Source: Ignavibacteria bacterium RIFCSPLOWO2_12_FULL_56_21
GTDB taxonomy: Bacteria; Bacteroidota; Ignavibacteria; UBA10030
DNA length: 64,000 bases
Direction: 5' to 3'
Assembly (NCBI GenBank): GCA_001802945.1
Contig: MHAK01000080.1
Coordinates: forward strand, 1 to 64,000
Shown here: positions 42,286 through 48,417 of the stretch, in pieces
How the letters are laid out: the number at the start of each line of letters is the position of its first letter
How positions within the stretch are numbered: the first letter of the stretch is position 1
Made by a program: the position numbers and the translations under genes
Notes under the pieces: generated by a model
Databases searched by the model: none
The model's input: only the letters and a program-made list of their open reading frames with translations
What the model was told of the DNA's origin: nothing

Positions 42286-42933
42286 GTGTCCCCTCGTCAA
42301 ACGAACGCCCGCCGTCCGTGGAGGTTGATCCTTGCTTCGCAGTCTCCGCGCCGCCGCGTGCTCTTGCGACAAGCCGGGTATCGGTTCATTGTTCGGCCCA
42401 GCGGCATCGATGAACCGATCGATACAGCTCACTCCCCTGAGTGGAATGCGCGGCGGATCGCGCTGGACAAAGCAATGGACGTTGCGACGCGGGTTCGCTC
42501 AGGCGTCGTTGTCGGCGCCGATACAATCGTCGTACTGAGCGGCAAGTTCCTCGGCAAACCATTGTCGCCTTCCGATGCCCGGTCCATGTTACGACGTCTC
42601 AGCGGCCGTACGCATAATGTGTATTCGGGGGTGGCAATTGTTGATGCGGAGACCGGAAGGTCGACGACATTTGCAGAGCGGACGCGCGTGACCTTTCGGA
42701 TGCTCGAAGAAGATGAGATCAGGGCGTATGTGGCTTCGGGTGCGCCGATGGACAAAGCCGGGGCATATGGGATACAGGACGATTACGGTGCAGTGTTTGT
42801 TGAAAAAGTTGTGGGATGTTTCTATACTGTGGTCGGTTTCCCGCTCTCACGGTTTCATCTTGTGCTTCGTCGATTTCTTGGAATGACAAAGACAAGGTCG
42901 CAGAGGGCGGTGCGAAAGGGCAAAAGGGGCTGA
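42286..42933 (+). CDS. maf: Maf family nucleotide pyrophosphatase
   Basis: 215 residues, GTG start. House-cleaning hydrolase removing non-canonical nucleoside triphosphates (dTTP/UTP type). Signature [18 protein letters not shown] (~15-32), [57 protein letters not shown] basic C-terminal tail ([14 protein letters not shown]) extends past the usual end. Confidence 0.94.
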
Positions 42934-42985: not shown

Positions 42986-43402
42986 ATGGCACGAAAGATC
43001 AGAGTTTTGGTTGCGAAAGCCGGGCTTGACGGGCATGACCGCGGTGCAAAGGTCGTTGCTGCGGCTCTCCGTGATGCCGGCATGGAGGTGATCTATACGG
43101 GCCTCCGCAAGACACCAGAGGTGATCGTGCAGGCAGCGCTCCAGGAGGATGTCGACGTCATTGGCGTCAGTTTGCTGAGTGGAGCCCACATGACCATTTT
43201 CCCGAAGGTGCTGTCGTTGATGAAAGAAAAGGGGTTGAATGATGTTCTCTTGTTCGGCGGAGGGATCATTCCGCAGGAAGATATTCGCAAACTGAAACAG
43301 ATGGGGGTCGGCGAGCTGTTCACACCCGGAGCGTCGACGATCGATATTGTCAAATATATCAATTCATGGTTTGGGACTCATCGGAGGGAATCGGCGGCCT
43401 AA
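42986..43402 (+). CDS. mcmA2: Methylmalonyl-CoA mutase small (B12-binding) subunit
   Basis: 138 residues. Stand-alone cobalamin-binding domain: [18 protein letters not shown] with the DxHxxG motif (D15, H17, G20; H17 is the lower cobalt ligand), [16 protein letters not shown] (Ser-x-Leu base-off loop) and [19 protein letters not shown]. Pairs with the catalytic subunit at 37108-38772, 4.2 kb upstream, an unusual separation. A strong terminator follows. Confidence 0.94.
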
Positions 43403-43943: not shown

Positions 43944-46247
43944 TCAATCCTGCCCGGTGTCCAGCCAGATTGACCGTTCAGGCGCCGGCTCTTCAGCCCC
44001 AGTTCGGCCCGAATATCGTTCCAACGTGCGGATCTGTGACGGATCGAATCCAAAGAGGTCTTCAGTGCTGAATATCCGCTCAAAATCCGCAGAAGGGAGC
44101 AGTATGCGAAATCGATCCCCGCATTGTCGAAGGCGGTCGAGGTAGTATTCGGTATTCTCATCGGGCTGGGTAGGGTCCCACAATTCGGCCAGCTTGCTGT
44201 TGTCCGATAGGACAACGTCCCTCTTCGACCCTGTGATGTAGTACGCAACGACCGTCCCGGCGTCGGGTGAACGTTCACCTTTTCGAAGAGCTTCATACGG
44301 CGCACTCGCATGCCGTATGCCGCGCTCGACTTCGGCCGCATACACAGCCCACGAGTCTCCAATCGTTTCGCGTCTTCCAAAATCCGATGGCCGCCAAGTC
44401 CTGTGAAGTATTCGCTGAACCTCCGCAACATAAAAGCGGTGGAGGGTATGCCAGTCCTTACGGAGGATGAGTTCGATAGAGTGAAGATAGAAATCCCGAA
44501 GAAATGGTTCGAACGATCGGGGCGGATGAGACCGCAGAAGCGTCACCGGCTGGTCGTTGGACAGGGCCGCCAGAATCCGCGGACCTAGGGAAGCGGCGGT
44601 CGCATAGTGAGCGATGGGATACGCCAAAAGTCCAAACGGAAGCCGCGAGGAAACGTTCTGCCAGAATCTTGTGCGCGCTTCCTCACTTTCGAGATTGTCC
44701 GGTATTTGAGACGTCACTACATCGCCGGAGAATTGGACTGGCGTTACATTGTGAAGTTCCAGGACGGCGACGGAGTCGCGCAAAGCACCTGATCGCCACT
44801 GGTCTGCCGTCCTATACATCTGATCATCGTGAAACCTCGAGGTTCTCGACGAGATCGCGGCCCAGGCTCCATACAGCAGCGCCGCTGAGGCCGCCCGCTC
44901 CGTTGCGGAAAGTCTGTTCGGATCGGTGCTGCGATCTGCGTGCTGCTCGGAAGATTGCGCGGGAGGGGCGTGCTCGATGAGAGACTCGTTGAACCGAGTC
45001 AAGCGGTCCCGGAGAAGTCTGGCGATGTCGCTGTCTGAGCCTTGCCAGCCAATCCATGCTGATCTGGCTACCAGGGGAACGATGGCAACGTCGGCGACAG
45101 GTGAGAACAGGCCTGTTCGGTACTCTGATTCGGACGGATTCGCAGAGACGAAAATCAGCGGGGCCGCAGGGATCGTCCGATGGGCGTCGAGCAGGCCGGC
45201 TGCGGCAAGCAGTTCAAAACGGAACGCGGGTGAAGCTCTGATCACCAGGTCAGGCCGAACACGGAGCTGCGACGAAAGGGAAACCAGGAAGGGAACCACG
45301 ACATCGCTCGCCGCTCGAACGGACCGGCACTCATCGGTGGGAGGCACACGGCGCGTGCCGGGTGATGACCAGTCTTTCGAATGGCGGGACGTTTTCCGCG
45401 GGGAGCTCTGCGCAACCATCCTCAACAATGCACGGGTCGATCCGTCTAGTCCTTGCTCGAAATCCAACGGATCGAGAAGCGTTCGACCGGGTACCGAATA
45501 TACAGACGGGAGCCCCGGAGGAGTTGATAGGCGAAGTGCGAATCCATCGCGTCCGAGGGCGCATTCAATCCCGAGCATTTCGCAGCGGACGGCAAGATAC
45601 GGCAGGAGAACATCGTGCACGTGGAAGGCTTCGAGGATGTCAGGGTTGACGGTCTGAATCCAATCGAAGAATGATGATATGAGAGCCCGCTCATCGTTCT
45701 TGTGAATGCGAAACGAGGCGCGGTCGCCTGACGAGGAATGTGCAGCTATCGCAGTGATCCGGTCCTCGGTACGGTCGGCCCGGCTGCGGAATCCTTCGCG
45801 GGAATGAGTGCGGATGCTGATCTGCGCGCGGAGAACTCGATCTATCGGACATCCGGCAAAGAAAGAGGAGCGGGCGTCAAACAACCAATGGTCGGCGGGG
45901 TCGGCAAGGAGGAAAAGCCGGTCGAGGTCCAGGTAAGAGTGAACGCGCTCATGACGCCGCTCCGATGTGTGGCGAATGAGCGTATGGACGCTCTCCCAGA
46001 CATCTGGCCAACGCTGAAACCGGACGACCCTGCGCAAACCGACCGACCCTTCGAGCAGAAATGATTCGTGAGGAGAAGGGAGAAGTTCCGTTGATTCCTG
46101 TTCATCCAGCACGAGCCACGGGCGAAGTGGATGGTCGAAAGACTGGACGCCTTCGGACGAGCGTGCGTAGACTCGTACCGTGCGGTCGTCCAAAACGTGG
46201 ATGCCGACTATGCCGTTCGGAACGACCGGTGTTCCGTCGGAAGACAT
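43944..46247 (-). CDS. Inactivated family-B DNA polymerase
   Basis: 767 residues with the layout of a bacterial Pol II-type family-B polymerase and no catalytic site intact. Exo I DIE reads SIR (142-147, QISIRT), Exo II reads DILEAFHVHDVLLPYL (203-218) without its Asp, motif A DxxSLYP reads ADVAIVPLV (385-393), motif B KxxxNxxYG reads ERAASAALLYG (450-460), motif C YGDTDS reads FSGDVVTS (506-513). The surrounding hydrophobic pattern, the GR after Exo II and the thumb region persist, and the frame is open, so the protein is maintained. Inactivated PolB2-branch relatives are known; a structural or DNA-binding repair role is inferred. It starts 6 bp after the slipin gene. Confidence 0.75.
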   Translation of the reverse strand: MSSDGTPVVPNGIVGIHVLDDRTVRVYARSSEGVQSFDHPLRPWLVLDEQESTELLPSPHESFLLEGSVGLRRVVRFQRWPDVWESVHTLIRHTSERRHERVHSYLDLDRLFLLADPADHWLFDARSSFFAGCPIDRVLRAQISIRTHSREGFRSRADRTEDRITAIAAHSSSGDRASFRIHKNDERALISSFFDWIQTVNPDILEAFHVHDVLLPYLAVRCEMLGIECALGRDGFALRLSTPPGLPSVYSVPGRTLLDPLDFEQGLDGSTRALLRMVAQSSPRKTSRHSKDWSSPGTRRVPPTDECRSVRAASDVVVPFLVSLSSQLRVRPDLVIRASPAFRFELLAAAGLLDAHRTIPAAPLIFVSANPSESEYRTGLFSPVADVAIVPLVARSAWIGWQGSDSDIARLLRDRLTRFNESLIEHAPPAQSSEQHADRSTDPNRLSATERAASAALLYGAWAAISSRTSRFHDDQMYRTADQWRSGALRDSVAVLELHNVTPVQFSGDVVTSQIPDNLESEEARTRFWQNVSSRLPFGLLAYPIAHYATAASLGPRILAALSNDQPVTLLRSHPPRSFEPFLRDFYLHSIELILRKDWHTLHRFYVAEVQRILHRTWRPSDFGRRETIGDSWAVYAAEVERGIRHASAPYEALRKGERSPDAGTVVAYYITGSKRDVVLSDNSKLAELWDPTQPDENTEYYLDRLRQCGDRFRILLPSADFERIFSTEDLFGFDPSQIRTLERYSGRTGAEEPAPERSIWLDTGQD

Positions 46248-46253
46248 CGCAGA

Positions 46254-47015
46254 TTAGGGACGCTTGACGTCCTCAGACCGTGTGAAGGCCTTGAACAGAT
46301 CGATGGGCACCGGGAAGATTGTCGTAGAATTGTTCTCGGTGGCGATCTCCCGAAGCGTTTGGAGATAGCGGAGTGTAATGGCGCTCGGCTGCAGGGAGAG
46401 AATTGCCGCTGCTTCGGAAAGCTTCTGCGCGGCCTGGAATTCACCTTCGGACGCGATGATTTTTGAGCGGCGTTCACGTTCAGCTTCCGCCTGCTTGGCC
46501 ATTGCGCGCTGCATTTCCTGGGGAAGGTCGATATGTTTGACCTCGACGTTGGACACTTTGATGCCCCACGGCTCCGTCTGATGATCGATGATCTTTTGGA
46601 GTTGGAGATTGATCTTGTCCCGCTCTGCCAAAAGCTCGTCGAGCTCCGACTGTCCGAGCACGCTCCGCAGGGTTGTTTGCGACAACTGGGATGTTGCGAA
46701 GAGGAAATTCTCCACCTCGACGATGGCTTTTTCGGGCATCATTACCCGGAAATACACGACAGCATTGACCTTCAGCGACACATTATCCTTCGTGATGATG
46801 TCCTGGGGCGGAACATCCATGACCACTGTGCGCAGGCTGACTTTGACCATCCGGTCGATGAAGGGCCACAACCAGATGATACCCGGCCCTTTGGTTGCAA
46901 TAAGTCGACCCAAGCGGAAGACCACTCCGCGTTCGTATTCGCGGAGGATCTTGACCGAGTTCGATGCGAGAAGAACGAACAGCAGGAGCGCAAAAAGCAG
47001 GACGGGGTTTGTCAT
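46254..47015 (-). CDS. Slipin/stomatin-family SPFH membrane protein
   Basis: 253 residues. N-terminal membrane hairpin ([18 protein letters not shown]), SPFH domain (~25-180: [54 protein letters not shown]) and a C-terminal coiled coil ([20 protein letters not shown]). Forms membrane rafts and pairs with NfeD-type proteases, whose gene overlaps it by 4 bp (ATGA). Standard bacterial slipin length. Confidence 0.95.
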
Positions 47016-48301
47016 AACGGTTTCTCCGGTACGGATTCGACGATTAGCGTCATGTTATCGATGCGCACGATGCGCACAGATGCTCCTTCTGGTATGGCGC
47101 TGCCGATCGCGTGCGCGTTCCACAATTCTCCGCGCACCATGATCGTGCCTGTGGGAGAGAGCTGAGTCCGGGCGGTACCCGAGGCGCCAATAAGGGCGTC
47201 CGCGCCGGTGGTCGGCCTTCTTCGTTGGGCCGTGAGACCGATGCCAATGACAAACACAAAGAAGCCGACGGTCATTGCTGCGACAAGCAGAATCACGGAC
47301 CAGGAAATCTCCACGAACTCCAGTTCGGACGACGGACGGAACAACATGGCGGACCCGAGCAACAGCGCGATCGTGCCTCCTATGCCCAGCAATCCATGGC
47401 TCGCGATCTTGATCTCGAGAATGAAGAGAATGACCGCAAAAACAATGAGGGCAACGCCGGCATAGTTGACCGGCAGCGTTTGCATCGAGTAGAATGCAAG
47501 AATGATGCTGATGCCGCCGACGACACCCGGCAGAATGGAACCGGGATTATAGAGCTCGAACAGCAATCCGTACAATCCAAGCAAGAACAAAATGTAGGCG
47601 ATATTCGGGTCGCTGATGATTCCCAGGAGTGACTCTGCGAACGACGGTTCATTCTCTTCGATCGTTGCCCCCGCTGTTGCCAGCTTGACCTCGCCGCCGG
47701 TTACCGATACGGACCGGCCGTCGATCTTCCGGAGCAAGGTACTGTCGTCGGGAGCGACGATGTCGATGACATTGCGGTCGAGGGCCTCTGATTCCGTCAG
47801 GGCCGTGCTTTTGCGGACCGCTTCCTCGGCCCACTGAACGTTGCGATTCCGGCGTCCGGCAATGGACCTGATAAAGGCCGCCGCATCGTTCGTGGCCTTT
47901 TCGTTCATGACCGAATCGATGCCCCCCTGCAGGTTTACCGGATGCGCGGCGCCAATATTCGTTCCGGGAGACATTGCTGCAATATGGCCTGCAATGGTGA
48001 TGAAGACGCCGGCGGAACCGGCACGTGAGCCGGAGGGAGAAACATACACAATGACGGGGACAGGGGAGTCAAGGAGATCGCGCACGATGGAACGCGTGGA
48101 CTCCAGGAGTCCTCCGGGCGTATTGAGGCGGAGAAGGACAGCTTGTGCAGCCGTGCGACGAGCGTCGTCAAGTCCCCGTTTGACGTATTCTGCCGTGGCC
48201 GGTGTAATAGGACCGTCGATCGTAAGTGCGCTGACCCGTTGCGCGGCCGATGATCCTGCAAGGAAGAGGGTGCAACAGAATACGAGAAAGGACCGCTTCA
48301 T
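47012..48301 (-). CDS. nfeD: NfeD-family ClpP-class membrane serine protease
   Basis: 429 residues from the ATG complementary to 48299-48301, which opens a signal peptide ([20 protein letters not shown]); a longer reading would run into the tRNA-Ser. ClpP-fold domain (~25-230): [37 protein letters not shown] (catalytic Ser) and [12 protein letters not shown] (catalytic Lys). Four membrane spans (~240-345) and a C-terminal OB fold (~370-425, [17 protein letters not shown]) follow. Works with the slipin encoded just downstream, which is its substrate in characterised pairs. Confidence 0.94.
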
Positions 48302-48327
48302 GGTGTCGACGGGCTGCGCGAGGGAAG

Positions 48328-48417
48328 TGGCGGAGAGAGTGGGATTCGAACCCACGATACCCTTTCAGGTATACACGCTCTCCAGGCGTGCCAGATAAAC
48401 CACTCCTGCATCTCTCC
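48328..48417 (-). tRNA. tRNA-Ser(GGA)
   Basis: Acceptor GGAGAGA/TCTCTCC, anticodon arm CACGC-CTGGAGA-GCGTG with anticodon GGA, long class II variable arm (ATACC-TGAAA-GGGTAT), T-arm GTGGG-TTCGAAT-CCCAC, discriminator G and an encoded CCA (48328-48330). It ends 27 bp before nfeD and may be co-transcribed with it. Confidence 0.95.

Follow-up and report, generated by a model that had tools for sequence, protein, structure and literature searches.

The window, a stretch of 64,000 nucleotides from Ignavibacteria bacterium RIFCSPLOWO2_12_FULL_56_21 (contig MHAK01000080.1), contains a frame of 767 codons without internal stop that is flanked by NfeD and slipin genes on one side and by B12-binding protein and Maf genes on the other. 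The features of the locus are listed in Table 1. A tRNA-Ser gene (48328-48417, reverse strand) overlaps the GTG with which the longest NfeD frame begins, and the real NfeD start probably lies further downstream than this GTG.

Table 1. Genes, domains and motif positions at the PolB locus (window coordinates).
Feature	Position	Strand	Basis
Predicted inactive B-family DNA polymerase, 767 aa, positional orthologue of G3-type PolB	43944..46247	-	Sequence searches, motif alignment, AF2, synteny
Slipin/SPFH gene directly upstream of PolB, operon-like spacing; conserved neighbour of live and dead PolB	46254..47015	-	
NfeD gene, second conserved neighbour upstream	47012..48355	-	
B12-binding protein gene, conserved convergent neighbour, synteny anchor	42986..43402	+	
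Maf gene, conserved convergent neighbour, synteny anchor	42286..42933	+	
N-terminal domain, residues 1-132; P43, L65, G67, F77, L122 and G132 invariant across dead lineages	45852..46247	-	
Exo I position, ISIRT for LDIET	45807..45821	-	Motif alignment
Exo II position, EAFHVHDVLLPYL for EGHNIFNFDLPYI; Asp replaced by Leu214	45594..45632	-	Motif alignment
Motif A position, VAIVPLVARS for ADVESLYPSI; catalytic Asp replaced by Ala388	45060..45089	-	Motif alignment
Motif B position, SAALLYGAWAAISS for FKILINSFYGYLGY	44847..44888	-	Motif alignment
Motif C position, PVQFSGDVVTS for VIEVDTDGLYF; first Asp gone, Asp509 aligns with second	44709..44741	-	Motif alignment
Thumb, residues 581-734, best-kept domain	44046..44507	-	Retention of conserved columns
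EDLFGF, putative beta-clamp-type motif, end of thumb	44046..44063	-	
IWLD (residues 760-763), C-terminal short linear motif in disordered tail	43959..43970	-	

Sequence searches give weak evidence that the frame encodes a PolB, and only its exonuclease part was detected with Pfam, NCBIfam and the PDB. The match to Pfam exo1 (1.5e-4) is below the cut-off, and those to NCBIfam Pol II and to the PDB PolB 5mdn reach 2.3e-8 and 5.9e-7 (E-values here and below are approximate). A full-length match comes from structure prediction, which bears out the readable PolB fold of the original prediction. The AF2 model, made with 25 orthologues in the alignment, has a mean pLDDT of 79.7 and a Foldseek E-value of 1e-30; its full-length matches are polymerases of the KOD and Tgo family, i.e., archaeal PolB. 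A second model, made with catalytically dead homologues only, has a near-identical secondary structure (pLDDT 78.4, Foldseek 3e-31), so the PolB fold is recoverable from dead sequences by themselves. The TM-scores of the window model are moderate (0.42-0.67), which is probably caused by the arrangement of the domains. According to AF2 and Foldseek, the domain order is canonical, as in PolB group G3, with an N-terminal domain followed by a DnaQ-like exonuclease and the polymerase.

The alignment used to call the catalytic motifs comprises 96 orthologues and takes intact outgroups as its anchor. The losses originally read at Exo I (SIR for DIE), at Exo II (no Asp), at motif A (AIVP for SLYP) and at motif B (no Lys, no Asn) all recur in this alignment; in motif B, Lys, Asn and Tyr-Gly are replaced by Ala, Tyr and Trp-Ala. 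Exo III is lost as well, its position reading RVPPTDECRSV. The wider claim that every catalytic motif is destroyed holds for Exo I-III and for motifs A and B, and is a little overstated for motif C, since the metal-ligand Asp may be kept there. In an ungapped alignment with the conserved PDN as anchor, Asp509 of SGDVV sits at the second motif C Asp, and the distal Asp of this motif may thus be preserved. In PMC8764526, the role of metal ligand is assigned to the second Asp, the first one pointing away. Another Asp, Asp386, lies two residues upstream of the motif A position, where the alignment of the window protein has an uncertainty of two residues and may be shifted in register. In G001, a congener, motif A falls into a gap and the second motif C Asp is replaced by Glu; conservation of the motif thus fails even inside the genus. 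At the level of sequence, with the catalytic columns aligned with those of homologues, the proposed catalytic inactivity is supported, and the status of a pseudoenzyme is well supported.

A homologue of the gene is present in 29 of the 32 genomes of the GTDB family and in most of the searched genomes of the order. Two genomes of the same family that are 90-94% complete (G009 and G010) gave no match, and the gene may therefore be dispensable there. The gene order NfeD-slipin-PolB, facing a convergent B12-Maf pair, is shared by families f1, f2, f4 and f5, in genomes with live and dead PolB alike, and in these families the PolB start lies less than about 100 bp from slipin irrespective of the state of the gene. 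In f6, B12-Maf is kept beside PolB; the neighbourhood comparison did not match NfeD or slipin next to it. This common neighbourhood indicates that the live and dead genes are positional orthologues, not paralogues.

The window protein alone gave no match in a pattern scan of the named genomes, whereas a profile of the live orthologues did. The patterns of this profile include intact motifs B and C, which biases the resulting set to live enzymes, and the set was therefore excluded from the loss counts. The profile picks up PolBs of Chlorobi over their full length, at 38-41% identity, and matches archaeal PolB with 3e-57 vs. 7.5e-20 for Pol II. Membership of E. coli Pol II (G1) was rejected on these values. 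The live members are thus closest to the PolBs of Chlorobi and archaea, which fits group G3, a label that rests on the statement in the accessible part of PMC12926913 that G3 PolB is present in all Chlorobi, rather than on a G3 reference alignment. In the available portions of the literature, G3 is related to the N-terminal half of Pol epsilon and is described with conserved exonuclease and polymerase sites (PMC7544198, PMC12926913); a clamp motif has been reported in this group (PMC12926913). The resemblance to G3 lies in homology over the full length with the PolBs of Chlorobi and others, in the same domain order, and in the direct orthologues of the window gene within the order, which are intact G3-like enzymes. 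The difference is that both sites have been lost in several lineages of this order, and the exonuclease alone in more. Judged by its motifs, the window protein is an inactivated derivative of G3 and not a G3 polymerase, the conserved active sites being absent.

The suggested link to the PolB2 branch, as a group of inactivated polymerases, did not hold. Archaeal PolB2 is an active translesion extender in the part of PMC8764526 available, and the PolB2 of this genome is another gene. The PolB2/G2 motif pattern, in which motifs A and B and only the distal Asp of motif C are kept, is found in L001 on contig C109. There (L289:503-4547), PolB2 follows the genes of a RadA-like protein and of a PPB2-like protein of 125 aa that bears an MGRT motif, an arrangement matching the gene order of the bacterial PolB2 mutasome, iRadA-PPB2-PolB2 (compare the accessible text of PMC11791011). 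These two names derive from the MGRT start and the RadA-like sequence, as Pfam recognises neither partner in this genome. The window protein shares with PolB2 the B-family fold, a broken exonuclease and an altered motif C (available portions of PMC2527604, PMC8764526 and PMC11791011). However, PolB2 is an active enzyme with preserved motifs A and B, encoded in an operon with iRadA and PPB2, whereas the window protein has neither these motifs nor these neighbours, but NfeD and slipin instead; membership of PolB2/G2 was rejected for this reason. Besides its main PolB2, genome G003 has a second, divergent PolB2-like gene (L057, contig C44).

The original prediction was incomplete in that it overlooked the live orthologous polymerases and the recurrence of inactivation in several lineages. 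Among the 65 typed orthologues of the order, a set defined by what the searches returned and with most partial genes left out, 30 are intact, 17 have lost the exonuclease site only and 18 have lost both sites. Loss of the polymerase site with an intact exonuclease was seen in none of the 65. In each of the 18 dead orthologues, at least one of two residues is missing, the Asp of motif A or the second Asp of motif C. Some of the changes are mild: G034 has Glu at both ligands, G050 and G051 have Glu at the second motif C Asp, and G003 combines an Asp to Glu change in motif A with a change in motif B.

A tree of rpoB and rpoC implies seven losses each for the polymerase and the exonuclease site, numbers that depend on a species tree built from two genes. 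The PolB tree recovers the same families as clades, which points to vertical descent. The rpoB+rpoC tree and a family-only PolB tree both keep G030 apart from the main dead clade and put it beside the live G013 and G014. The PolB tree of all 77 sequences places it inside the dead clade with 97% support, which, given the agreement of the two other trees, is probably a case of long-branch attraction. In family f4, a single loss of the polymerase site is preferred by the gene tree, vs. three on rpoBC (AU test against the rpoBC grouping, p = 0.043), and this disagreement results in a range. The computation thus shows that the polymerase site was lost independently five to seven times in one bacterial order. 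The exonuclease was lost first in three cases (the main f1 clade, G030 and G034), as deduced from live relatives with a dead exonuclease; in the remaining cases, both losses fall on one branch. All 20 orthologues from other orders of the class keep the polymerase site, and the exonuclease has been lost again in some of them. Lost or altered exonuclease motifs beside an intact polymerase site occur in the G3 PolBs of G143, G116, G125, G107, G151 and G169 (L302, L308-L312) from these other orders. A second type of Y-family polymerase (IMS E-value about 1e-35 to 1e-41, about 410-445 aa) is commoner where G3 PolB is intact, an association that is clustered on the tree; it is also carried by G019, the sole fully intact member of the family of the window genome. 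This distribution was looked at for a possible takeover of the PolB role by a Y-family polymerase, a reading that was set aside. Literature searches returned nothing relevant on inactivated PolB in Ignavibacteria, and no inactivated G3 polymerase is described in the available portions of PMC12926913, PMC7544198, PMC11791011, PMC2527604 and PMC8764526.

The dead genes are kept under purifying selection and are not decaying. In four close dead pairs, the approximate Nei-Gojobori omega is 0.138, 0.167, 0.120 and 0.146, compared to 0.07-0.18 in pairs with a dead exonuclease and 0.04-0.09 in intact pairs. Moreover, the 18 dead orthologues, from fragmented assemblies that include MAGs, contain no stop and no frameshift despite large distances, where neutrality at 0.3-2 substitutions per site predicts 25-164 stops. 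In the open frame of 767 codons in the window, each neutral substitution per site would introduce about 82 stops, and none is present, which excludes chance. The window lineage is the fastest: its PolB distance is about 14 times the rpoBC distance, vs. 2-9 times in pairs without it, and its root-to-tip length in the PolB tree is 3.3 vs. 0.45-0.8 for intact genes. Constraint has thus been relaxed in this lineage, which still shows purifying selection: codon-position identity with G001, the sole partner available for comparison (36% protein identity, synonymous sites near saturation), is 0.49/0.57/0.34, the second position far exceeding the third (z = 8.7).

The retained parts are unevenly distributed over the protein. 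Among dead enzymes, the retained fraction of the columns that intact ones conserve is 0.87 for the N-terminal domain, 0.51 for the exonuclease, 0.47 and 0.51 for the first and second palm parts, 0.37 for the fingers and 0.77 for the thumb. In the window protein, this fraction is 0.77 for the thumb vs. 0.12 for the fingers, which are 23% identical to those of the congener. At the end of the thumb, F732 of EDLFGF is found in 14 of the 15 dead lineage representatives. The DLFxF motif has no Gln, unlike the canonical clamp motif; in other phyla, QxxLF-like clamp motifs follow the thumb at roughly this position. In the disordered tail, where most columns have an entropy of 2-3.5 bits, I-W-L-D recurs in dead representatives of four families (Ile in 15 of 15, Leu in 14, Trp in 12). 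To our knowledge, IWLD matches no described motif. Of the basic residues conserved in the thumb, 43% are left in the window protein, which favours a protein-protein role over a DNA-gripping one; of the five in the fingers, none is left. The DNA-binding half of the function originally proposed is weakened by these numbers; a polymerase-recruiting role is a plausible candidate. The tails of the G3-like PolBs from Chlorobi and Rhodothermales (L086, L087, L098, L099 and others) are acidic and end in EEVPF, EEIPF or DETPF, like the SSB C-terminus (DDLPF). Because of these EEVPF-like ends, mimicry of the SSB tail was considered for the order as well and rejected, its IWLD tail being unlike DDLPF. 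The SSB gene of the window genome (5699-6181, forward strand) ends in EDLPF.

Several other readings of the locus have to be weighed against this evidence. An early pseudogene that is still open by chance would be in line with the long branch of the window lineage and with the two genomes without a match. Such decay is nevertheless very improbable and was rejected: the check proposed with the original prediction, for an omega near 1 and frameshifts in sister genomes, revealed neither, omega being 0.12-0.17 in close dead pairs, and both the codon-position signal and an invariant Ile within a disordered tail argue for maintenance, as that prediction had supposed. Little more credence is due to the idea that the enzyme is still active, fully or in part, through metal ligands that have moved or been replaced. 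Archaeal PolB2, formerly regarded as inactivated, turned out to be active with a broken motif C (PMC8764526, accessible part), several dead homologues carry only the mild changes described above, and the window protein has Asp509 as well as an Asp just ahead of the motif A position. However, the dead proteins, unlike PolB2, share no conserved replacement motif, and the divergence of the fingers, the disappearance of all their conserved basic residues and the missing Lys, Asn and Tyr-Gly of motif B are difficult to reconcile with activity.

The role of the protein might concern NfeD and slipin, its membrane partners in the operon, and not DNA metabolism, as the close spacing to slipin is maintained in four families whether PolB is live or dead. 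This is quite unlikely, given that PolB of f6 stands beside B12-Maf with no NfeD or slipin matched there, and that ordinary polymerase motifs are present in the live orthologues. Somewhat less unlikely, but still doubtful, is that the dead protein serves specifically as an accessory subunit of the resident mutasome iRadA-PPB2-PolB2. PolB2 is found in 10 of the 13 genomes of the family with a dead PolB, the window genome has the whole operon, and in family f4 PolB2 lies about 3.4 kb (G051, L197:2873-11002) or about 7 kb (G049, L196) from the dead gene. Genomes with a live PolB carry PolB2 too, though, the linkage is confined to a few genomes, and in G020 (98% complete) the dead gene is present and PolB2 was not found.

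As the active site was lost while selection keeps the protein, its job is probably other than DNA copying. The explanation preferred here, to which roughly even chances are given, is that a G3-type proofreading polymerase was deprived of its exonuclease site first and of its polymerase site later, and that the protein persisted as a non-catalytic factor for docking or recruitment. The ancestral polymerase would have had a second, structural job, located in the thumb and tail and consisting of docking on the replication or repair machinery. Docking would most likely be on the beta clamp, with DLFxF as candidate contact, and IWLD might contact some further partner. The dead protein would perform this structural job alone, as a recruiter of, or place-holder for, another polymerase, which could be PolB2. 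A broader proposal, held slightly more tentatively, is that an ancestral non-catalytic function of the thumb and I-W-L-D outranks synthesis, so that the loss of proofreading frees catalysis to go, as would have happened five to seven times with natural intermediates left behind.

The inactive DNA polymerases that we know of arose mostly in single ancient events, so their origin cannot be watched. Here, intact, exonuclease-dead and fully dead versions occur in related species at one locus with the same neighbours, which makes the order of losses and the non-catalytic parts testable by comparison and by mutation of two short motifs. Two known systems may serve as precedents, not as demonstrated relatives. 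ImuB (PMC10421592, PMC11791113) is an inactive Y-family polymerase of the DnaE2 mutasome that is thought to tether the active polymerase to the clamp. As a dead polymerase bridging the clamp and DnaE2, it would be a functional analogue of the window protein, although it belongs to another polymerase family and its partner is known. The dead C-terminal half of Pol epsilon resembles the window protein in architecture, being a B-family exonuclease-polymerase module with dead sites and a structural job. That half, however, is ancient and fused to a live polymerase, whereas the protein described here would be a stand-alone, bacterial and repeatedly evolved counterpart.
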